Of a stretch of 64,000 bases of DNA, positions 13,769 through 36,995 are shown piece by piece. The stretch is from Kocuria marina. GTDB taxonomy: Bacteria; Actinomycetota; Actinomycetes; Actinomycetales; Micrococcaceae. The notes beneath the pieces are model-generated. The model was not told the DNA's origin. It saw only the letters and a list, made by a program, of their open reading frames with translations, and searched no databases. The stretch is taken from assembly GCF_000786655.1 (NCBI RefSeq), contig NZ_JROM01000016.1:372001-436000 (forward strand). The letters are read 5' to 3'. The translations under genes were made by a program, and so were the position numbers. Positions within the stretch are counted from its first letter, which is position 1. Each line of letters starts with the position of its first letter.

Positions 13769-14458
13769 CTACCGGTCCGTATATTGCTGGAGCAAGTGTG
13801 CCAAATCCCCGGGCTCACGAGCGACAGCGGCACACACGTCCTGCAGTTCACCGGGCTGCGCGAAGCCCCACCCCGCGCCGAGGCAGTCGATGCCGTGGCT
13901 GCGGGCGCCGTCGGCGTCGTAGCTGCGGTCCCCGATCATCACGGTGCGTGCGGGGTCCGGGGGCAGCGCGCCCATGCGCCGCAGTGCTTCCCCGATGATC
14001 GCGGGCTTGTCGTGCAGGCGCCCGGACCCACCGCCGGGCTGCGCGAGATCGTCCGCGGCGCCGCTCACGGTCTCGAAGTACTCGTCCAGCCCGAAACGCG
14101 ACACGACCTCCACGGCGATGTGTTCGGGCTTCTGAGTGGCCACGGCCTGACGCACGCCGCGCTCGCGCAGCGCCCCCAGCACCTCACGGACACCCGGGTA
14201 GACACGCGAGCGGTCCAGGCCCTCCGCGAGGTACCCAGCGCGGTACACCGAGACGACCTCCGCGATCCGGTCCTCGGGGACGTCCGTGAACCGGCGTAGG
14301 GACTCCCCGATCGGCGGTCCCACGAAGCGCCCGAGGTTCTCGGGCACCGTGAAGCCGCACGAGCGCAGGGCGTCGGCGATCCCGTCCGTGATCGCCCCGG
14401 CGGGATCCAGGACCGTGCCGTCCAGGTCCCACAGGACGATGGCGCTTTGGACGCTCAT
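13769..14458 (-). CDS. HAD-superfamily phosphatase, phosphoglycolate-phosphatase-like
   Basis: 229 residues. HAD motif I is [10 protein letters not shown], motif II is VATQKPE (Thr), and motifs III/IV are [10 protein letters not shown] and [13 protein letters not shown]. The cap between motifs I and II is of the Gph/PpaX subclass. These enzymes remove phosphate from phosphoglycolate, pyrophosphate or similar small substrates. Its ATG overlaps the uvrA stop (ATGA, 4 bp), so it is coupled to uvrA. 2-Phosphoglycolate can arise from DNA strand-break repair, which would fit the neighbourhood, but that link is an inference. Confidence 0.85.
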
Positions 14459-17400
14459 GCCCGGTCCCCCACCGCGGTCCCGGCGCGTTGCCGGTTCTCC
14501 TGCGCCTCGTCGGCCGGTTCCCCGTCATCCGGGGCGTCCGCACCGTCCCCGGTGCTGCTCGGGTCTGCAACGTCCCCCGGGCCCGCGGCGTCGCCAGCAC
14601 TCGCGGTGCCGTCCGCGTCGGTGCGGTGGGCGGCCTCCCGGGCGGCGGAGTGTTCCAGCACCTCGCGCAGGAACTGCCCCGTGAAGCTGTCCTTGTTGCG
14701 TGCGACCTGCTCCGGGGTGCCCTGTGCCACGACCGTGCCACCGCCGGAACCCCCGTTGGGGCCCAGGTCCACGATCCAGTCCGCCGACTTCACGACGTCC
14801 AGGTTGTGCTCGATGGTCATGACGCTGTTGCCCTTGTCGACCAGGCTCTGCAGCACCATGAGCAGCTTCCGGATGTCCTCGAAGTGCAAACCCGTGGTGG
14901 GTTCGTCCAGGACGTAGATCGTGCGCCCGTTGGAACGCTTCTGCAGTTCCGCGGCGAGCTTGACGCGCTGCGCCTCACCGCCGGAGAGCGTGGTGGCGGG
15001 CTGGCCCAGCCGCACGTACCCGAGGCCCACCTCCACGAGCGTGGTGAGGTAGCGCGCGATCGCGGTGAACGGCGCGAAGAACTCCGCCGCCTCCTCGATG
15101 GGCATGTCCAGGACCTCGGCGATGTTCTTGCCTTTGTAGTGCACCTCGAGGGTCTCGCGGTTGTAGCGCGCACCCTTGCACACCTCGCACGGGACGTAGA
15201 CGTCCGGCAGGAAGTTCATCTCGATCTTCAGCGTCCCGTCACCCGAGCACGCCTCGCAGCGCCCGCCCTTGACGTTGAACGAGAACCGGCCCTGCTGGTA
15301 GCCGCGGACCTTGGCCTCCTGGGTCTCCGCGAACAGCTTGCGGATCCGGTCGAACACGCCCGTGTACGTGGCCGGGTTGGAGCGCGGGGTGCGCCCGATG
15401 GGGCTCTGGTCCACGTGCACGACCTTGTCCAGGTGCTCGAGCCCGTCGATGCGCTTGTGACGCCCGGGCACCTGCTTGGCGCCGTTGAGCTGATTGGCCA
15501 GGCTCGTGTAGAGGATGTCGTTGACGAGCGTGGACTTCCCGGAACCGGACACGCCCGTGACCGCCACGAAGACCCCCAGCGGGAAGTCCACCGTGAGGTT
15601 CTGCAGGTTGTTCTCCCGCGCGCCCACGACCGTGAGCTGGCGCTTCTTGTCCACGGGACGCCGCTTCGCGGGGACCTCGATCAGCTTGCGCCCGGTGAGG
15701 TAGTCGGCCGTGATCGACCGGCGGTTCTCGAGCAGCTGGTCGTAGGTCCCGGAGTGGACCACGTCACCGCCGTGCACGCCCGCTCCCGGACCCACGTCCA
15801 CGATCCAGTCGGCCTCACGCATGGTGTCTTCGTCGTGCTCGACCACGATGAGGGTGTTGCCCATGTCCCGCAGCCGCAGCAGGGTGTCGATGAGCCGGCG
15901 GTTGTCGCGCTGGTGTAACCCGATGGACGGCTCATCCAGGACGTAGAGCACGCCCACGAGCCCCGCACCGATCTGGGTGGCGAGCCGGATGCGTTGCGCC
16001 TCCCCACCCGACAACGTGGCCGCGGCCCGTTCCAGGTTGAGGTAGTCCAGCCCGACGTCGATCAGGAACGTCAGGCGCGCGATGATCTCCTTGAGCACCT
16101 GATCACCGATCTTTGCCTCGCGGGTGTCCAGGTCCAGCTGCTGGAAGAACGCGAGGGAATCGCGCATGGGCAGGCGGGTGGCCTCGGCGATGTTCTTCCC
16201 GCCCACGGTGACCCCGAGGATCGTGGGATTCAGCCGCGCTCCCCCGCACTCGGGGCACGCCACCTGGCGCATGTACTGCTCGTAGCGGTCCTTGGCGTGA
16301 TCGGACTCGGTCTCCTCGTGCTTGCGCTTGATGTAACCGAACACACCCTCGAAGCCCTGCGTGTACCGGCGCTCGCGACCCCACCGGTTGCGGTAGGCCA
16401 CGGTGACCTTGTAGTCCTTGCCGTGCAGGATGGCCTTGCGTGCCTTGGTCGGCAGGCCCTTCCACGGGGTCACGAGGTCGAATCCGGCCTCCTCCCCGAG
16501 TCCGGCGAGCAGCCGGTTCCAGTAGTCGCTCGTGGCCTTGCCCAGGGACCACGGGGCGATGGCGCCCTCCACGAGGGACAGGTCCGGGTTGGGCACCACG
16601 AGGTCCTCGTCCACCTCGAGGCGCGAACCGATGCCGTCGCACTCGGGGCACGCACCGAACGGGGCGTTGAACGAGAACGAGCGCGGTTCGATCTCGTCCG
16701 TCTGCAGTTCGTGCTCGTTGGGGCACGCGAGGTTCTCGGAGAACGTGCGGCGGGTCTCGTGCCACGGGGACTGCTCGCCCTCGCGGGTCACGAGCTCGAT
16801 GACCACGCGTCCGTCCGCGAGGTTCAGGGCGGTCTCGACCGAGTCGGTGAGCCGCTGCCGGGCGTCCGGCTTGGCGGTGAGGCGGTCCACGACCACGTCG
16901 ATCGTGTGCTTGTACTGCTTCTTGAGCTTGGGCGCGTTCTCGAGCTGGACGGTCTCGCCGTCCACGACGGCGCGCGCGTACCCCTGGGTGCTCAGCTGCT
17001 GGAACAGGTCCTGGAATTCGCCCTTGCGGCCCTTGACCACGGGGGCGAGCACCATAAACCGAGTGCGCTCGGGCAGCTCGAGCAGCTGGTCAACGATCTG
17101 CTGTGCCGTCTGCTTGGTGATGGGCTCACCGCACACCGGGCAGTGCGGGTGGCCGATCCGTGCCCACAACAGACGCATGTAGTCGTAGATCTCGGTGATC
17201 GTGCCCACCGTGGAGCGCGGGTTGCGCGAGGTGGACTTCTGGTCGATGGACACCGCCGGGGACAGCCCCTCGATGAAGTCCACGTCCGGCTTGTCCACGC
17301 GGCCCAGGAACATCCGGGCGTAGGAGGACAGCGACTCCACGTAGCGGCGCTGACCCTCGGCGAAGATGGTGTCGAAGGCCAGGGAGGACTTCCCGGACCC

Positions 17401-29228: not shown

Positions 29229-31376
29229 TCACGCGTGGCCGGCGTCCTTCATGCGCCGCAGTTCCTTCTTGAGGTCCGCGATCTCGTCCCGCAGCCGCCC
29301 GGCCAGCTCGAACTTCAGCTCGGCGGCGGCGTTGCGCATCTGCTCACTGAGGTCCTCGATCAGATCCACGAGGTCCTCGGCGGGTGCGGCCGCGACACCG
29401 TCGCGCAGCAGTTTGGACTCCGCGGCGGCCGCGGCCTGATCCTTGCCCGTGGCCTTGCCTGTGGCCTTGCCCTTACCGCCCTTGACGGGAGCGGTGTGAT
29501 TGTTGGCGGCGGCGCGCTGGGCCAGCAGGGTGCGGGTGTCCTCGTCCTCGCGTGCCAACTGATCGGTGATGTCCGCGATCCGCTTGCGCAGCGGTTGCGG
29601 ATCGATCCCGTGTTCCTCGTTGTACGCGACCTGGATCTCCCGGCGGCGGTTGGTCTCCTCGATCGCAACGTTCATGGAATTGGTGATCTTGTCCGCGTAC
29701 ATGTGGACCTCACCCGAGACGTTACGGGCGGCGCGACCGATCGTCTGGATCAGGGACGTGGTGGAACGCAGGAAGCCTTCCTTGTCCGCGTCCAGGATGG
29801 CCACGAGGGAGACCTCGGGCAGGTCCAGGCCCTCGCGCAACAGGTTGATGCCCACGAGGACGTCGAACGTGCCCATGCGCAGGTCCCGCAGCAGTTCCAC
29901 GCGCTTGAGGGTGTCCACGTCCGAGTGCAGGTACTGGACCCGCACACCGTGTTCCATGAGGTACTCGGTGAGGTCCTCCGCCATGCGCTTGGTCAGCGTG
30001 GTCACCAGGACGCGTTCGTCGCGTTCCACGCGCAACTCGATCTGTTCCAGCAGGTCGTCGATCTGACCCTTGGTGGGTTTGACGATCACCTGGGGGTCCA
30101 CGAGTCCCGTGGGGCGGATGATCTGCTCCACCACGGAGTCCACCTTGGACATCTCGTACGGCCCCGGGGTCGCGGACATGTACATGGTCTGCCCGATTCG
30201 TTCCAGGAACTCGTCCCATTTCAGGGGGCGGTTGTCCATGGCGGACGGCAACCGGAAGCCGTGTTCCACCAGCGTGCGCTTGCGGGACATGTCCCCCTCG
30301 TACATGCCACCGATCTGCGGCACGGTCACGTGGGACTCGTCGATGATGAGCAGGAAGTCGTCCGGGAAGTAATCCAGCAGACAGTGGGGAGCGGAACCGC
30401 GCGGGCGGCCGTCAATGTGCAGCGAGTAGTTCTCGATCCCGTTGCAGTAGCCCATTTGTTCCATCATCTCGAGGTCGTACGTGGTGCGCATGCGCAACCG
30501 CTGGGCCTCCACGAGCTTGTTCTGCGACTCGAGCTCCTGCAGCCGCTCCTGCAGCTCCTTCTGGATGGACTCGATCGCCGAGGCCATGCGTTCCGCACCG
30601 GCCACGTAGTGCGAGGCGGGGAAGACGTACATCTCCTGCTCCTCGTTTACGATCTCCCCCGTGAGCGGGTGCAGCGTGTAGATCGCCTCGATCTCGTCCC
30701 CGAAGAACTCGATACGCACCGCGAGTTCCTCGTACATGGGGATGATCTCCACGGTGTCCCCGCGCACGCGGAACGTCCCGCGGTGGAAGTCCACGTCGTT
30801 GCGCACATACTGCATGTTCACGAACTGACGCAGCAGGGTGTCCCTGTCCATCTCCTGGCCCACGGCCAGGGTGACCATTTGCTTGACGTACTCCTCCGGG
30901 GTGCCCAGACCGTAGATGCAGGACACGGTGGAGACCACCACGGTGTCGCGGCGGGTCAGCAGGGCATTGGTGGCGGAGTGTCGCAACCGCTCGACCTCCT
31001 CGTTGATCGAGGAGTCCTTCTCGATGAAGGTGTCCGTCTGGGGGACGTAGGCCTCCGGCTGGTAGTAGTCGTAGTAGGAGACGAAGTACTCGACGGCGTT
31101 GTGGGGCAGCAGTTCGCGCAGCTCGTTGGCCAGCTGGGCGGCCAGGGTCTTGTTCTGCACGAGCAACAGCGTGGGCCGCTGGACGGCCTCGATGAGCCAC
31201 GCGGCGGTCGCGGACTTACCCGTGCCCGTGGCGCCCATGAGTACCACGTCCTTCTCCCCGCCCTTGATCCGGCGGGACAGGTCCGCGATGGCCTTGGGCT
31301 GGTCACCGGCGGGCTGGTACTCGGACACGACCTCGAACGGGGCGACCACACGATTGATCTTCTGCGCGAGCGACAT
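29229..31376 (-). CDS. uvrB: Excinuclease ABC subunit B
   Basis: 715 residues. UvrB is the helicase-like damage verifier that receives DNA from UvrA and recruits UvrC. Walker A is [13 protein letters not shown] (~residues 48-60), the beta-hairpin region contains [17 protein letters not shown], and [21 protein letters not shown] and QTIGRAARN are helicase motifs. The C-terminal UVR domain binds UvrC. A Lys/Gly repeat linker ([13 protein letters not shown]) precedes the UVR domain, a local quirk. The gene has its own leaderless-type promoter. Confidence 0.97.
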
Positions 31377-31438: not shown

Positions 31439-32065
31439 TCACAGGACCCGCGTGCGCCACCATTCGTCCACCTGCGCGAGCAGGTCCTCGATGGTCGTGG
31501 AATTGTCGAGGACGGCCGTGGCCACCGCTCGGCGCTGCTCGTCCGTGGCCTGGGCCGCGATCCGGCGGCGGGCGTCCTCCGGGCTCATCCCGCGGTCCTC
31601 GACCATCCGCCGCACCCGTTCGTCCTCGGGCGCCTGCACCACGAGCACCTCGTCCATCGCCTCGTGCTGACCGGTCTCCACGAGCAGCGGGATGTCGTGG
31701 ACCACCACTCCCCCCGGCGGCACCTCACTCACGAGCCGCGCGGTCTCGCGCCGCACGAGCGGGTGGATGATCCCGTTCAGGGCCGCGAGCTGCTCGGCGT
31801 CGTCGAACACGATGGCCGCGACCGCCGCGCGGTCCAGTGCGCCCGAGTCCGGCTGCACGATCCGCTCCCCGAAGTGGGCCACCATGGCCTCGTAGCCCGG
31901 CTCCCCCGGTTCCTGCAGGGCCCGGGCGATCGCGTCCGCGTCCAGGACGAGCGCCCCGAGCTCGCTCAGCCGCCGCGAGACGGTGGACTTGCCCGAGGCG
32001 ATCCCGCCGGTCAGCCCGACCCGCAGAGTCTCGGTGTGGCCGGGTCTGCGCAACAGCTCAGTCAT
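31439..32065 (-). CDS. coaE: Dephospho-CoA kinase
   Basis: 208 residues from ATG 32065. It phosphorylates dephospho-CoA in the last step of coenzyme A synthesis. The P-loop LTGGIASGKSTV (residues ~18-29), catalytic DADAIAR, NGIIHPLVR, VVHDIPLLVE and the lid-region RRRIAAQ are all present, so this copy looks fully functional. It overlaps by 8 bp the end of the upstream BCCT gene, whose C-terminus is itself a CoaE-like domain. A longer open frame upstream is not protein-like. Confidence 0.95.
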   Translation of the reverse strand: MTELLRRPGHTETLRVGLTGGIASGKSTVSRRLSELGALVLDADAIARALQEPGEPGYEAMVAHFGERIVQPDSGALDRAAVAAIVFDDAEQLAALNGIIHPLVRRETARLVSEVPPGGVVVHDIPLLVETGQHEAMDEVLVVQAPEDERVRRMVEDRGMSPEDARRRIAAQATDEQRRAVATAVLDNSTTIEDLLAQVDEWWRTRVL

Positions 32066-34430
32066 GACGGTGTCCTTCCGTGTCCTGCTCCCGGCCCAGT
32101 GCCGGGAGCACGTGGTCGCGCCAGATCTCGCGGGAGCGCTCCCGCAGGCCGTCGAGGTCACCGTCGTTGACGATCACCTCGTCCGCAACCGCCCGGATCT
32201 CGTCCGGCCCGGCGGCCACGTCCACCCGGTCCCACGCGTCCTCGGCCGGCAGGCCCTTACCCGCGCGCAACCGACGCACCCGGTCCTCCACGGGCGCGTC
32301 CACGGCCACGACGAGGTCGAACCGGTCCCCCTGTTCCGCCTCGAGCGGGTCCCGGATCACCTGCACGACCACGCTGTCGGGTCCCGCGTCCCGGGCACGA
32401 CGCCGCGCCGCCTCCCGCAGCGCGGGGAGCAACAGTTCGTGGGCGCGGGCCCTGGCGGCGTCGTTGTGGGTCATCAGGTCGTCGAGCGCGTCTGACGCGG
32501 CGGCGTCGTCGTGTGAAGAGACACCCCGGGCGCGCAGCTGCTCCCCGAAGACGCGCTCGACGTCCGCGCGCGTGTCCGTGCCCGGGCGCAGGAGCTCGCG
32601 CCACAGCGCGGAGCTGTCCACGACGACGGCGCCCAGCGCCTCGAACTCGCGGGCCACGGTGTGCTTGCCCGCCGAGGGACCGCCGGTGAGAGCGAGCTGG
32701 AACACCGGCCGGCCCTCCTGCTCCCGCTGCCAGTGCCACGTGCGGGGCTGGTGGGTGTCGTGATCGGGCTCGGTGCCCACCTCGTACTCGGGACGGATGA
32801 CGTAGTCCTCGATCGCGGCGGTGTCCTGCTGCGCCCTGCGGTGGTACTCCTCCGCGGGCAGCACCTTCTTCCACTGCCGGGTGCGCATGGGACGCGCGGT
32901 GCCGGCGTCCTGGCGCAGCGCGCGTAAGAGCATGCCGGCCTGCAGGACCTCCAGGACCATCACGGGAGCGCCGATCACGATGATGACCTCCTGCAGGGCG
33001 TTGAGCCCGTTCTCGCCGGAGGTCGTGATGATCGCGGCACACACGGCGCCCACGGCGAGCGTCCAGAAGATCCGCTGCTGGCGCGGCCCCTCGTCCTCGT
33101 GCCCGTTGGCCATCGCGTCCATCACGAGCGCGCCGGAGTCGATCGAGGTGATGAAGAAGATCGTGATGACCACGAGCGCCACGAGCGCGGTGACCGCGAA
33201 CCACGGCATGGACCCGAGCAACTGGAACAGAGCGGCCTCCACGTTGCCCTGCGTGACGATGGTGTCCGTGAGACTGCCCTGCGTCTCGGGAGCGCGGTCG
33301 ATGCGGATCGCGCTGTAGCCGTAGATGGCCATCCACACCGCCACGAACGACGACGGGACGCCGAGCACCCCCACCACGAACTGACGGATCGTGCGCCCGC
33401 GCGAGATCTTGGCCACGAACATCCCCACAAACGGTGCCCACGTGACGGTCCAGGCCCAGTAGAACACCGTCCAGTCACCGGACCACGTGCCGCCGCCGAA
33501 CGTGTCGTTGAAGAACGCGAGCGTGGGCAGCTGATTCACGTAGCCACCCACGGACTCCACGATGCTGCGCATCGTGTCCATCGTGGCCCCGGCCATGAGC
33601 ACGAACAGCAACAGGGCCACGGCCAGGACGATGTTCGCGTACGAGAGTCGCTTGACGCCCTTCTCCATGCCCGCGAGCACGGAAGCCAGGCCCACCGCCG
33701 TGATCAGCGCGATGATGGCCGCCTGGATCCACCCCGCCATCGGGATGCCGTAGACGTACGTGAGGCCGCTGTTGATCTGCAGCGCCCCGAGCCCCACGGA
33801 CACCGCGAGCCCGAACACGGTCGCGACGATCGAGAGCACGTCGATCGCCTTGCCCCACGGGCCGTGGATCCCGTCGCCGAGCACCGGGTGGAACGCGGAC
33901 GAGACGCGCGGGGGCAGTTTGCGCTTGTACGTGAAGTACCCGAACGTCAGACCGGGGACGGCGAGGATCGCCCACATGTGCACGCCGAAGTGGAAGTTGG
34001 CGATGTTCAGGGCCTCCACCGCGGCGCGGTCCGACGCGGGCTCCGTGCCGTACATGGGCGGGTTCGCGTAGTGGTTGATGGGTTCGGCCACACCCCAGAA
34101 CATCAGCACGGCGCCCACGCCCGCCGCGAAGAGCATCCCGAACCACGCGATCCCGGAGTACTCGGGGACGGAATCGTCGTCGCCGATCTTCACGCGCCCG
34201 TAGCGGCTCAGTGCCAGACCGATCGCGAAGATCACGAGAGCGGTCACGCTGAAGGTGTAGAACCATCCCGTCTGGTAGCGCAACGCGTGGGAGATCACGC
34301 CGAAGACCGATTGCACGGGACCCGGGAACAGACTCATGCCGAGCGTGAAGACGACGATCAGCGCGGCCGAGACGAAGAAGATGGACGGGGTCGTGCGCAA
34401 CCCCAGTCGGTCGTGAAGACGATTGAGCAC
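32058..34430 (-). CDS. BCCT-family osmolyte transporter fused to a degenerate dephospho-CoA-kinase-like domain
   Basis: 790 residues. Residues ~1-510 are a BCCT (betaine/carnitine/choline) sodium- or proton-coupled carrier with about 12 membrane segments. Its family signature is FYWAWTVTWAPFVGMFVAK, then ISRGRTIRQFV, preceded by WGVAEPINHY. Residues ~511-575 form a charged linker. Residues ~577-780 align with CoaE: LTGGPSAGKHTVAREFEALG, VVVDSSALW, VIRDPLEAEQ, FDLVVAVDAPVEDRVRRL, ADEVIVNDGDLDGL. Several catalytic positions are lost: the Walker A Ser/Thr after Lys is His589-His590 shifted (GKHT for GKST), the DAD motif is DSS, and the lid RIAAQ is RVDVAA. It may therefore bind but not phosphorylate dephospho-CoA. 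GTG start with GGAAAG upstream; the stop overlaps coaE by 8 bp. Confidence 0.88.
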   Translation of the reverse strand: MLNRLHDRLGLRTTPSIFFVSAALIVVFTLGMSLFPGPVQSVFGVISHALRYQTGWFYTFSVTALVIFAIGLALSRYGRVKIGDDDSVPEYSGIAWFGMLFAAGVGAVLMFWGVAEPINHYANPPMYGTEPASDRAAVEALNIANFHFGVHMWAILAVPGLTFGYFTYKRKLPPRVSSAFHPVLGDGIHGPWGKAIDVLSIVATVFGLAVSVGLGALQINSGLTYVYGIPMAGWIQAAIIALITAVGLASVLAGMEKGVKRLSYANIVLAVALLLFVLMAGATMDTMRSIVESVGGYVNQLPTLAFFNDTFGGGTWSGDWTVFYWAWTVTWAPFVGMFVAKISRGRTIRQFVVGVLGVPSSFVAVWMAIYGYSAIRIDRAPETQGSLTDTIVTQGNVEAALFQLLGSMPWFAVTALVALVVITIFFITSIDSGALVMDAMANGHEDEGPRQQRIFWTLAVGAVCAAIITTSGENGLNALQEVIIVIGAPVMVLEVLQAGMLLRALRQDAGTARPMRTRQWKKVLPAEEYHRRAQQDTAAIEDYVIRPEYEVGTEPDHDTHQPRTWHWQREQEGRPVFQLALTGGPSAGKHTVAREFEALGAVVVDSSALWRELLRPGTDTRADVERVFGEQLRARGVSSHDDAAASDALDDLMTHNDAARARAHELLLPALREAARRRARDAGPDSVVVQVIRDPLEAEQGDRFDLVVAVDAPVEDRVRRLRAGKGLPAEDAWDRVDVAAGPDEIRAVADEVIVNDGDLDGLRERSREIWRDHVLPALGREQDTEGHRHD

Positions 34431-34587: not shown

Positions 34588-35310
34588 GTGCCCGCCGAAT
34601 CCTTCTCCCACGACGCCGCGGACTCGCGCGTGTCCTACACCGTCCCGCGCCGGGGCATCGTGCACAGCGCGGAGCTCGAGATCAAGAAGTCGCGGTTCCT
34701 AGCACTACTCACCCGCGTGGACACGGAAGCGGAGGCCCGCGAGTTCATCTCCCGTGTGGCCGCCGAGCACCGGGACGCCCGTCACCACTGCTCGGCATTC
34801 GTGCTCGGGCCCACGCGCGCCACGACGCGCTCGTCCGACGACGGCGAACCGGCCGGCACCGCGGGCATGCCCATGCTGCAGGCGCTGACCGCGCACGCCA
34901 CGGCTCGGCAACGCACCGCGGACGAGGCCGGTGACCTCTCGGACGTGTGCGCGGTGGTCGTACGGTGGTTCGGCGGGGTCAAGCTCGGGGCCGGTGGGCT
35001 CGTGCGCGCCTACTCCGGTGCCGTGACCGCCGCGCTGGACACCGCCCCGCTCGTGCGCAGGATGCGCTGCCGCGAACTGACCCTGCCGCTCCCCCACGCC
35101 GAGGCCGGCCGCGTGGAGGCCGAGGTGCGCACCCGCGGGTTCACGGTCCTGCCCACCGGTTACGGCTCCGCGGACGCGACCTTACGCCTGCTCGTGGCAG
35201 ATCTCCCCGGCGCCGTCGACGACGCCCGGGCGGCCCTGGCGAGCATCACCGCCGGACACGCGAGCGTCCACGAGGGACCCGCCCGGTGGGAGGACGTCCC
35301 GGACACGTGA
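34588..35310 (+). CDS. IMPACT/YigZ-family protein
   Basis: 240 residues. The family joins an N-terminal UPF0029 (IMPACT) domain to a C-terminal ferredoxin-like DUF1949 domain. Bacterial members are of uncertain role; links to translation regulation are drawn from eukaryotic IMPACT. Motifs: IKKSRFLALLTRV, the core SSDDGEPAGTAGMPML, and VVVRWFGGVKLGAGGLVRAY. The GTG start lacks a ribosome binding site and fits a leaderless mRNA. The gene is monocistronic, ending in a perfect terminator. Confidence 0.92.
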   Translation: MPAESFSHDAADSRVSYTVPRRGIVHSAELEIKKSRFLALLTRVDTEAEAREFISRVAAEHRDARHHCSAFVLGPTRATTRSSDDGEPAGTAGMPMLQALTAHATARQRTADEAGDLSDVCAVVVRWFGGVKLGAGGLVRAYSGAVTAALDTAPLVRRMRCRELTLPLPHAEAGRVEAEVRTRGFTVLPTGYGSADATLRLLVADLPGAVDDARAALASITAGHASVHEGPARWEDVPDT

Positions 35311-35406: not shown

Positions 35407-36876
35407 TCAGTGACCGGTGAGCTTCTCGCGCAGAGCGGCGAGGGCCTCGTCGGACGCGAGCGTCCCGGCGTCCTCGGCCGGAGCCTCGGAGGAGTAGCTC
35501 GTGGGGCCGGAGGAGTGGCTCGGGGAGGACGAGGAGGACGAGGTGGTCGCCGCATCCTGGTCTTCCTGCAGGTGCTTGCGCACCTGCTCCTTGTGCGCCT
35601 CCCAGCGGGCCTGGGCCTGAGCGTACTGCTCCTCCCACGCGGCGCGCTGCTCCTCGTAGCCCTCGATCCATTCGTTGGTCTCGGGATCGAAGCCCTCGGG
35701 GTACTTGTAGTTGCCCTGCTCGTCGTACTCGGCGGCCATGCCGTACTGGGCGGGATCGAACTCGGTGGAGTCCGGGTCCACACCCTCGTTGGCCTGCTTG
35801 AGGGACAGCGAGATGCGGCGGCGGTCCAAGTCGATGTCGATGACCTTGACGAACAGCTCCTCGTTCACGGAGACGACCTGCTCGGCCATGTCCACGTGAC
35901 GCTGCGCCAGCTCGGAGATGTGCACGAGGCCCTCGATGCCGTCCTCGACGCGCACGAACGCACCGAAGGGAACCAGCTTGGTGACCTTGCCCGGGACGAC
36001 CTGGCCCAGGGCGTGGGTGCGGGCGAACAGCTGCCACGGGTCTTCCTGGGTGGCCTTGAGCGAGAGCGACACGCGCTCGCGATCCATGTCCACGTCCAGC
36101 ACCTCGACGGTGACTTCCTGACCGACCTCGACGACCTCGGAGGGGTGGTCGATGTGCTTCCAGGACAGCTCGGAGACGTGCACCAGACCGTCCACGCCAC
36201 CGAGGTCCACGAACGCACCGAAGTTGACGATCGAGGACACGGTGCCCGTGCGGACCTGGCCCTTCTGCAGCTGCTGCAGGAAGTTGGCGCGCACCTCGGA
36301 CTGGGTCTGCTCGAGCCACGCACGGCGGGAGAGCACCACGTTGTTGCGGTTCTTGTCGAGCTCGATGATCTTGGCCTCGAGCTGCTGACCGATGTAGGGA
36401 GCCAGGTCGCGGACGCGGCGCATCTCCACGAGGGAGGCGGGCAGGAAGCCGCGCAAGCCGATGTCCAGGATGAGGCCGCCCTTGACGACCTCGATGACGG
36501 TGCCGGTGACGACGCCGTCCTCGTCCTTGACCTTCTCGATGTCGCCCCAGGCGCGCTCGTACTGGGCGCGCTTCTTGGAGAGGATCAGGCGACCTTCTTT
36601 GTCCTCCTTGGTGAGGACCAGAGCCTCCACCTCGTCACCCACAGCCACGACGTCATCGGGGTTGATGTCGTGCTTGATGGACAACTCACGAGAGGGGATG
36701 ACACCTTCGGTCTTGTACCCGATGTCCAGGAGGACCTCGTCGCGGTCGACCTTGACGACGGTGCCTTCCACGAGGTCGCCGTCGTTGAAGTACTTGATGG
36801 TCGCGTCGACAGCGGCGAGGAAATCCTCTTCAGTTCCGATGTCGTTGACGGCGACCTGCTGGGTGGTGGTGGTCAT
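35407..36876 (-). CDS. rpsA: 30S ribosomal protein S1
   Basis: 489 residues from ATG 36876. S1 binds mRNA and aids translation initiation. Four S1 RNA-binding repeats run from ~residue 33 to ~370, the third and fourth showing SIVNFGAFVDLGGVDGLVHV and LVPFGAFVRVEDGIEGLVHI. The C-terminal ~110 residues are acidic and glutamine-rich and contain a serine run before a short conserved end, typical of actinobacterial S1. The upstream frame extension is not coding. A good sigma-70-type promoter lies ~110 bp upstream. Confidence 0.96.
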   Translation of the reverse strand: MTTTTQQVAVNDIGTEEDFLAAVDATIKYFNDGDLVEGTVVKVDRDEVLLDIGYKTEGVIPSRELSIKHDINPDDVVAVGDEVEALVLTKEDKEGRLILSKKRAQYERAWGDIEKVKDEDGVVTGTVIEVVKGGLILDIGLRGFLPASLVEMRRVRDLAPYIGQQLEAKIIELDKNRNNVVLSRRAWLEQTQSEVRANFLQQLQKGQVRTGTVSSIVNFGAFVDLGGVDGLVHVSELSWKHIDHPSEVVEVGQEVTVEVLDVDMDRERVSLSLKATQEDPWQLFARTHALGQVVPGKVTKLVPFGAFVRVEDGIEGLVHISELAQRHVDMAEQVVSVNEELFVKVIDIDLDRRRISLSLKQANEGVDPDSTEFDPAQYGMAAEYDEQGNYKYPEGFDPETNEWIEGYEEQRAAWEEQYAQAQARWEAHKEQVRKHLQEDQDAATTSSSSSSPSHSSGPTSYSSEAPAEDAGTLASDEALAALREKLTGH

Positions 36877-36995
36877 GTAGTAGGGACTCCGATGAAATTG
36901 ATGTGATGGTTTGGTGTCACCAACCCCGCCCTGTGGGGCGCACCGGATTGGCGACGTCACGCTTGATGTGGGCGTGCGAATACACGCACCGCTCC

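Follow-up and report, generated by a model that had tools for sequence, protein, structure and literature searches.

Regulatory domains fused to membrane carriers are a known kind of arrangement. In LacS, a GPH symporter of streptococci and lactobacilli, a fused IIA-Glc-like domain modulates the carrier, and BetP of Corynebacterium glutamicum is controlled by its C-terminal cytoplasmic region, according to the accessible text of PMC10710835, which also lists MFS carriers with fused CBS, PAS, cNMP-binding or UspA domains. Here we describe a gene from Kocuria marina that joins a carrier of the BCCT family, a linker and a domain with the fold of CoaE, the dephospho-coenzyme A (dephospho-CoA) kinase, in one open reading frame. 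The gene lies in a 64,000-nucleotide stretch of contig NZ_JROM01000016.1 (positions 372,001 to 436,000), called the window below. From sequence comparison, structural models and analogy with the systems above, we put at about one half the probability that this gene encodes a captured enzyme turned into a mostly non-catalytic C-terminal regulatory domain of a BCCT-type carrier.

Each of the described systems resembles the fusion in part. LacS is likewise a secondary transporter with an enzyme-derived control domain (PMC10710835, accessible text), but its carrier family and its domain are different ones, and it is controlled by HPr phosphorylation, of which nothing comparable is known for the fusion. 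BetP belongs to the same BCCT family, whereas the carrier of the window is of another subfamily and scores under the betaine equivalog cut-off. To our knowledge, BetP has no folded enzyme-like domain at its C-terminus. The MFS carriers share the principle of a plug-on C-terminal domain, as the accessible text of PMC10710835 describes it, but differ in carrier family and in that their domains are general sensors and not a pathway enzyme. Canonical CoaE, with or without the mycobacterial UPF0157 domain, has the same fold as the fused tail and detectable homology to it; the tail differs in being fused to a carrier, in lacking catalytic residues in most lineages and, in the window, in scoring under both CoaE equivalog cut-offs. 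Literature joining BCCT with dephospho-CoA kinase, or dephospho-CoA kinase with membrane and "transporter fusion", was not found in searches that mostly did not extend to subscription papers, and a search on Kocuria with BCCT returned nothing of use. As far as we searched, a kinase of the CoA pathway has not been described in the role of a fused regulatory domain; the proteins themselves have probably been annotated automatically.

Domain identity and fold

An earlier reading of the window from its sequence alone (the sequence-only reading) had placed at 32058-34430 a single open reading frame made up of a full BCCT carrier, a linker and a CoaE-like domain. Coordinates and architecture are both right; the strand, which that reading did not state, is the minus strand, and the gene runs from a GTG at 34430 to a TGA at 32058-32060. 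The carrier part (Pfam BCCT, residues 17-508) scores 549 bits against a cut-off of 27 and matches TIGR00842 over its full length with 486.8 bits against a cut-off of 407.55. The tail matches Pfam CoaE (PF01121) at residues 579-759 with 71.9 bits (E 7e-20, cut-off 27) and stays under both CoaE NCBIfam equivalog cut-offs (112.8 of 215 and 38.9 of 65.55 bits), whereas the product of the adjoining canonical coaE gene exceeds both (261.1 of 215 and 155.7 of 65.55). A whole-genome search found two CoaE domains in this genome, the fused one (76 bits) and that of the adjoining gene (198.3 bits). The latter is the complete CoaE that had been reported to overlap the fusion by 8 base pairs, and the overlap, ATGACTGA, is indeed common to the fusion stop and the coaE ATG.

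AlphaFold2 modelled residues 560-790 with a mean predicted local distance difference test score (pLDDT) of 92.6 and a predicted template modelling score of 0.88. The 28 best matches of Foldseek to this model in the PDB comprise, by their titles, 26 dephospho-CoA kinases, one bifunctional CoA synthase and one TT1252 protein. The retention of the CoaE fold, proposed earlier, is confidently predicted from these models. In a full-length model (pLDDT 81.8 overall) a helical carrier extends to residue 508 and is followed by a linker partly below 50 and by the CoaE fold. The linker is more conserved than the tail: 40 of its 61 columns are invariant in ten sequences, against 58 of 214. The tail, a domain of enzyme origin, forms the C-terminal part of the same open frame as the secondary carrier, and it combines the three features of a pseudoenzyme, namely an enzyme fold, lost catalytic residues and retention by selection.

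The name "osmolyte transporter", given earlier to the carrier, reaches no further than BCCT family membership; the scores lie under the betaine, choline and carnitine model cut-offs. The carrier has Thr328 where the two solved chains shown carry Trp in the Trp box of transmembrane helix 8, so the full Trp box of the trimethylammonium carriers is not present. Whether fused or not, members of the subfamily have Thr at this position in every one of the 58 stretches aligned (one gene counted twice). The subfamily may carry something other than trimethylammonium compounds; Thr328 bears on substrate and not on membership of the BCCT family. A literature search on Trp-box residue numbers returned nothing of use.

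Distribution of the fusion

The same architecture, which the earlier reading had suggested looking for in Kocuria and its relatives, occurs in 11 of 27 Kocuria genomes (two of them with frameshifts), in 11 of 11 genomes of genus g35, in 7 of 8 genomes drawn from genus g4 and, outside the family, in 2 of 2 genomes of g56 and 3 of 10 of g202, five genomes in two families. Thirteen Kocuria genomes were over the threshold, and G020 and G026, with matches reaching only residues 578 and 574, were counted as unfused. From sequences that agree exactly or almost exactly with those of the named loci, we infer that g35 is Micrococcus and that g4, here called the Citricoccus-type genus, includes Citricoccus and Micrococcus terreus. 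Two Micrococcus genomes, G090 and G226, have two fused copies each. Named Kocuria records with the fusion are marina, rhizophila, varians, salsicia, tytonis, tytonicola, carniphila, atrinae and one metagenome-assembled genome (MAG); other named records are Micrococcus terreus, two Citricoccus, Micrococcus lylae, Micrococcus lacusdianchii and two Micrococcus MAGs.

Nearly full-length matches in a single frame were obtained from 10 of 59 genomes: that of the window, eight more Kocuria and one from a different genus in the same family. The matches from these nine further genomes show 69-82% identity to the window fusion and, with more such matches in the wider surveys, rule out an artefact, a chance event or a frameshift or assembly error that joined two genes, the last of which the sequence-only reading had itself named as fatal to its proposal. 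The K. atrinae fusion has frameshifts that are probably assembly errors, because uvrB and terC are also broken in that assembly. In K. marina KCTC 9943 a 1-base deletion lies at L004:1493-1501 (same place in L033), with intact neighbours, and is either real decay or a sequencing error.

Among the matches listed in a family survey of 395 genomes, drawn from a larger group and judged by best E-value and match range, linker and tail were found only in Kocuria, Micrococcus and g4, with the next genome at 3.7e-49. The order-level survey (396 genomes) added g56 and g202. At class level (394 genomes) only the window and G540 matched through the tail at E 1e-120 or better, and at phylum level (296 genomes) only the window matched the linker-tail profile at E 1e-52. 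These queries could overlook a CoaE fusion that involves an unrelated BCCT carrier.

Catalytic residues of the fused domain

We compared catalytic motifs in 33 fused tails and 50 true CoaE sequences, leaving out the g202 coaE genes and the frameshifted tails of K. marina KCTC 9943 (one frameshift) and K. atrinae (several). In all 50 true CoaE sequences the P-loop Lys and Ser, both Asp of the DAD motif, the His of the HP motif, PLL and its Glu, the equivalent of Mycobacterium tuberculosis R140, the lid Arg and the lid Gln are present. The window tail retains Lys589 and Thr591 in its P-loop. The losses named earlier are confirmed: His590 stands in place of the P-loop Ser, Ser607 in place of the second Asp of DAD and Ala739 in place of the lid Gln. 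To them must be added the HP His, now Leu668, and PLL, now Arg-Asp-Pro (693-695). Going by mutagenesis primers in the accessible text of PMC3019153, the second Asp of DAD is D32 of M. tuberculosis CoaE. That text also covers the roles of K14, D32, L114 and R140 and gives the D32A enzyme about 5% of catalytic efficiency.

As far as the sequences tell, different catalytic residues have been lost in each lineage while fold and fusion persist. All nine Kocuria tails are without the P-loop Ser (Thr in two), the HP His, the L114 equivalent and the lid Gln, and seven have lost the D32 equivalent; the P-loop Lys is retained in eight, the first Asp and the R140 equivalent in all nine. Micrococcus tails have lost the HP His, lid Arg and lid Gln in 12 of 12, the first Asp in 10 of 12 and the P-loop Lys in 7 of 12, and retain the D32 equivalent in 11 of 12. 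The two g56 tails retain the Lys and have lost the first Asp, the His, the Pro, the lid Arg and the lid Gln; the three g202 tails have lost the P-loop Lys and lid Gln and retain the His and PLL with its Glu. M. terreus retains the P-loop, both Asp and the lid Arg, with loss of the His, of the Pro, first Leu and Glu of the PLL-Glu motif, and of the lid Gln. The six Citricoccus tails retain every tabulated catalytic residue, and in two of them the Arg after DAD is His. Arg720 and Asn755 are invariant in 83 of 83 domains. Seven tails scored with NCBIfam form a gradient: three from Citricoccus pass both cut-offs, those of M. terreus, one Micrococcus and one g202 genome pass TIGR00152 only, and a K. 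rhizophila-type tail passes neither.

Kinase activity is probably absent or very weak in the Kocuria domain, and the Citricoccus tail may be an active, membrane-tethered CoaE. The earlier suggestion of altered or no catalysis thus fits the Kocuria losses but not every lineage, since the Citricoccus tails have every tabulated residue and the three scored pass the CoaE equivalog cut-offs. It is very unlikely that the tail is still an enzyme in general, whether as an additional, membrane-bound CoaE or as a kinase that now acts on another substrate. The complete-looking Citricoccus tails and the retained Lys, first Asp and R140 equivalent in Kocuria would fit such a role, but the absence of the HP His, L114 equivalent and lid Gln from every Kocuria tail, the loss of D32 in most of them and the low efficiency of D32A argue against it, as does the canonical CoaE that was always present where checked. 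A separate canonical CoaE was found in 14 of 14 fused genomes checked (g202 included) and in the window's genome, 15 of 15 in all, so CoA synthesis does not depend on the fused copy; that this copy is the sole CoaE of some lineage is ruled out by the same genomes.

Selection and the fusion-specific tryptophan

Pairwise codon models (GY94 with F3x4) were fitted to 11 pairs, hand-picked among many, with the real coaE computed for eight; K. marina KCTC 9943 and K. atrinae were left out. The ratio omega of nonsynonymous (dN) to synonymous (dS) divergence was 0.11 or less for the tail in 11 of 11 pairs, and omega = 1 was rejected in each (twice the log-likelihood difference 27-695). For the real coaE, omega was 0.02-0.17 where dS was finite. 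Estimates of dS ran away for the linker in L007-L009, the tail in L005-L009 and coaE in L003-L006, and reached 13 for the tail in L003-L005; omega in these four cells is not to be trusted, and omega = 1 was rejected in each. Tail dN was higher than coaE dN in four of eight pairs (0.212 against 0.158 and 0.180 in the window's lineage) and lower in four (e.g. 0.069 against 0.184). Going by omega and dN, the constraint on the tail is about as strict as that on the true enzyme.

These values contradict the idea of a decaying relic, a gene duplicate fused by chance and on its way out. The 1-base deletion in K. marina KCTC 9943, the patchy presence and the graded motif loss could be seen in that light, but purifying selection in 11 of 11 pairs, a frame that has stayed open through long divergence in five lineages and the invariant Trp733 leave us giving it hardly any credence.

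Trp733, in the lid region, is Trp in every fused tail, the catalytically complete ones included. The corresponding residue in the 50 true CoaE sequences is Arg in 32, Ala in 6, Glu in 5, Leu in 4 and Gln in 3, and never Trp. The only other fusion-specific position in the domain is 721, with Leu in 30 of 33 tails versus 5 of 50 CoaE. Judged from this alignment, Trp733 would be the best mark of a second function that predates the loss of catalysis.

A purely structural tail, which would aid folding, trimerisation or stability of the carrier and sense nothing, could account for the loss of ligand-binding residues in several lineages where the fold and a few residues persist, and for the pairs in which the tail has the higher dN. 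We regard it as quite unlikely, since unfused sister carriers exist without a tail and the invariance of Arg720 and Asn755 exceeds bare structural need, though either residue could be structural.

Origin of the fusion

Among the 85 CoaE domains of one tree, the 34 tails group in a single clade (98/94), which adjoins the coaE genes of Citricoccus and Micrococcus with weak support (88/76); in a tree of 57 BCCT domains, 33 fused BCCT domains form one clade (100/99), whose sister consists of the unfused BCCT of G020 and G026 and the second carrier of M. lylae (100/99). The near-copies L062, L063, L068, L071, L074 and L076 were left out of the trees, the K. atrinae tail was included, and g202 coaE is in no tree. 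As sampled, the fusion arose once, because both halves are monophyletic; the long branches among tails call for caution with the tail tree. The sequence-only reading had derived the fusion from a tandem duplication of Kocuria's own coaE. This fails, because all sampled tails share one older origin, and descent of the Kocuria tails from coaE of their own genomes by independent duplication is rejected by the approximately unbiased (AU) test (p 0.00017). Descent of g56 tails from g56 coaE is rejected likewise (AU p 0.000011), and repair of the Citricoccus tails by gene conversion from coaE is unsupported, as they group with the other tails.

The g56 tails nest within the Micrococcus tails (100/95), while rpsA and uvrB place g56 outside the family clade (100/99), so g56 obtained the fusion by transfer, and the transferred gene sits immediately in front of the host's own coaE. 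The fused label requires five changes on the tree of rpsA and uvrB, at least four of them forced by starred branches. The nearest relative of the window in rpsA and uvrB is K. marina KCTC 9943 (100% over 1207 columns, path 0.0019). Kocuria tails group with M. terreus in the tail tree (100/99), a fork that is unsettled in the BCCT tree, and Kocuria may have acquired the fusion either by descent with loss or by transfer.

Locus order and unfused relatives

The usual order in Kocuria, Citricoccus and Micrococcus is rpsA, the UPF0029 gene (reversed), the fusion, coaE and uvrB. The window also has a TerC-family gene, by Pfam, with uvrB downstream of the fusion and coaE. Both g56 loci have coaE and uvrB after the fusion; rpsA was not found there within the 18 kilobases read. 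A possible coaE start overlaps the fusion end in 18 of 23 loci, a later start being also possible in some. In the two g56 loci it lies 10-16 bases behind the fusion, with an additional overlapping GTG in one of them; in three Micrococcus loci the distance is about 65-190 bases. In g202 the fusion is located apart from rpsA, coaE and uvrB.

This arrangement bears on the main rival to a regulatory domain of the carrier, in which the tail would act on CoaE instead, as an inactive partner in mixed oligomers that holds CoaE at the membrane or tunes its activity. In the loci read from Kocuria, Citricoccus, Micrococcus and g56, coaE comes immediately after the fusion, the frequent overlap probably means translational coupling, and the g56 tails, which are of the Micrococcus group, are yet placed before g56's own coaE. 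BCCT carriers are trimers whose C-terminus faces the cytoplasm. According to the accessible text of PMC3123319, the CoaE of mycobacteria changes between a trimeric form and a monomer that is active. We nevertheless consider a CoaE partner fairly unlikely: the g202 tail is under purifying selection (omega 0.11) although its gene is apart from coaE, and the adjacency is also explained by a tandem-duplication origin and by recombination between the two coaE-like stretches.

None of the unfused relatives read has the two parts as a split gene, the other finding that the earlier reading had said would overturn it; unfused BCCT genes stop after the linker beside one canonical CoaE. The BCCT gene ends just past the linker in G020 and G026, and in G080, G105 and G126 it extends 35-46 residues past the linker length, with no CoaE similarity reported there. 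There is one CoaE in each of G020, G026, G027, G080 and G106, and one plus a sub-threshold match in G105; the G106 locus has coaE and lacks the BCCT gene. In G027 (L089:8296-10315) a broken BCCT gene with a well-kept linker stretch precedes the single intact coaE, and may represent either a lost or a pre-fusion state.

Several other arrangements were observed. Two Micrococcus loci (L133:7026-11937 and L046:163-5079) have two tandem fused genes before coaE. An unfused sister-clade BCCT gene lies upstream of the UPF0029 gene in M. lylae (L048:1676-3439) and Kocuria G020 (L087:7733-9268), and in M. lylae it adjoins the fused gene. A second TerC-like stretch stands beside the TerC-family gene downstream of uvrB in several relatives (L132:284-2627, L142:15471-17999, L033:9752-12649). 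In G864 of g202 (regions L128:2206-5045 and 13869-15440) the fusion lies downstream of two resolvase-type recombinase genes. A gene near this fusion, which by its motifs we take to resemble a cholesterol-dependent cytolysin, hints at an Arcanobacterium- or Trueperella-like host.

Table 1. Positions of the fused gene, its parts and its neighbours in the window
Feature	Coordinates	Strand	Basis
BCCT-linker-CoaE' fusion gene, 790 residues plus stop, GTG start	32058..34430	-	one open frame; full-length homologues
BCCT carrier domain, residues 17-508	32907..34382	-	Pfam PF02028, 549 bits, profile 1-485/485
Linker, residues 509-576	32703..32906	-	highly conserved; low model confidence
CoaE-fold domain, residues 577-776	32103..32702	-	PF01121; AlphaFold2 model; Foldseek
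Altered P-loop, residues 583-591, GGPSAGKHT, Ser to His590	32658..32684	-	motif table
Ser607 replacing catalytic Asp (M. tuberculosis D32)	32610..32612	-	motif table; PMC3019153, accessible text
Arg720, equivalent of M. tuberculosis R140, invariant in 83/83 aligned domains	32271..32273	-	alignment; PMC3019153, accessible text
Trp733, lid region, 33/33 fused tails vs 0/50 true CoaE	32232..32234	-	alignment
Canonical coaE, 208 residues, overlaps fusion end by 8 base pairs	31439..32065	-	Pfam, NCBIfam
uvrB, downstream anchor of conserved locus	29229..31376	-	Pfam UvrB; relatives
UPF0029 (YigZ-like) gene, divergent upstream neighbour	34588..35310	+	Pfam; relatives
S1-domain protein gene (rpsA), upstream locus anchor	35407..36885	-	four S1 stretches in Pfam; relatives

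A proposed regulatory tail and its possible mechanism

In general terms, the regulatory role proposed by the sequence-only reading gains support, and the presence of the same fusion in five lineages, mostly as single open frames, counts in its favor. In the mechanism we propose, a coaE copy would have been fused once, in frame, behind a linker-bearing BCCT gene, and the tail would have been kept afterwards as a mostly non-catalytic regulatory module on the cytoplasmic side. A ligand bound by the CoaE fold, for which an adenine nucleotide or dephospho-CoA/CoA is the likeliest candidate, would position the lid region that bears Trp733, and the lid position would be transmitted to the carrier via the conserved linker, much as the IIA-like domain acts on LacS. 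Working transport, the regulatory role, the ligand, the signal path and the cytoplasmic side of the tail are all presumed here.

Several observations weigh against a regulatory domain. The fusion is dispensable, because it is absent from 16 of 27 Kocuria, 7 of 10 g202 and 1 of 8 Citricoccus-type genomes, and the K. marina KCTC 9943 protein is 98% identical over residues 1-732 before the deletion breaks the last part of the domain. Catalysis may matter in Citricoccus, because the tails there look catalytically complete. With the P-loop Lys missing from 7 of 12 Micrococcus, 3 of 3 g202 and 1 of 9 Kocuria tails, tight binding of ATP is hard to see as the function that all tails share. Model confidence for the linker is low, and the model lends no support to a contact between domain and carrier.

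Only tentatively do we advance a fuller version of the regulatory reading. A kinase may have been captured once, moved between actinobacterial families and been stripped of catalysis along routes that differ between lineages, turning into a receptor that couples uptake to the adenylate or CoA state through gating by the Trp lid or through a mixed complex with CoaE on the trimeric carrier.

The fusion joins uptake by a compatible-solute-type carrier with the last step of CoA synthesis, two processes between which we know of no link. The relatives form a natural series, from the complete-looking enzyme tails of Citricoccus to tails in Kocuria and Micrococcus that are hardly enzymes, on the same kind of carrier and linker. 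With this series one can ask directly what a transporter gains from a captured enzyme that no longer catalyses, and on which residues the second function depends.

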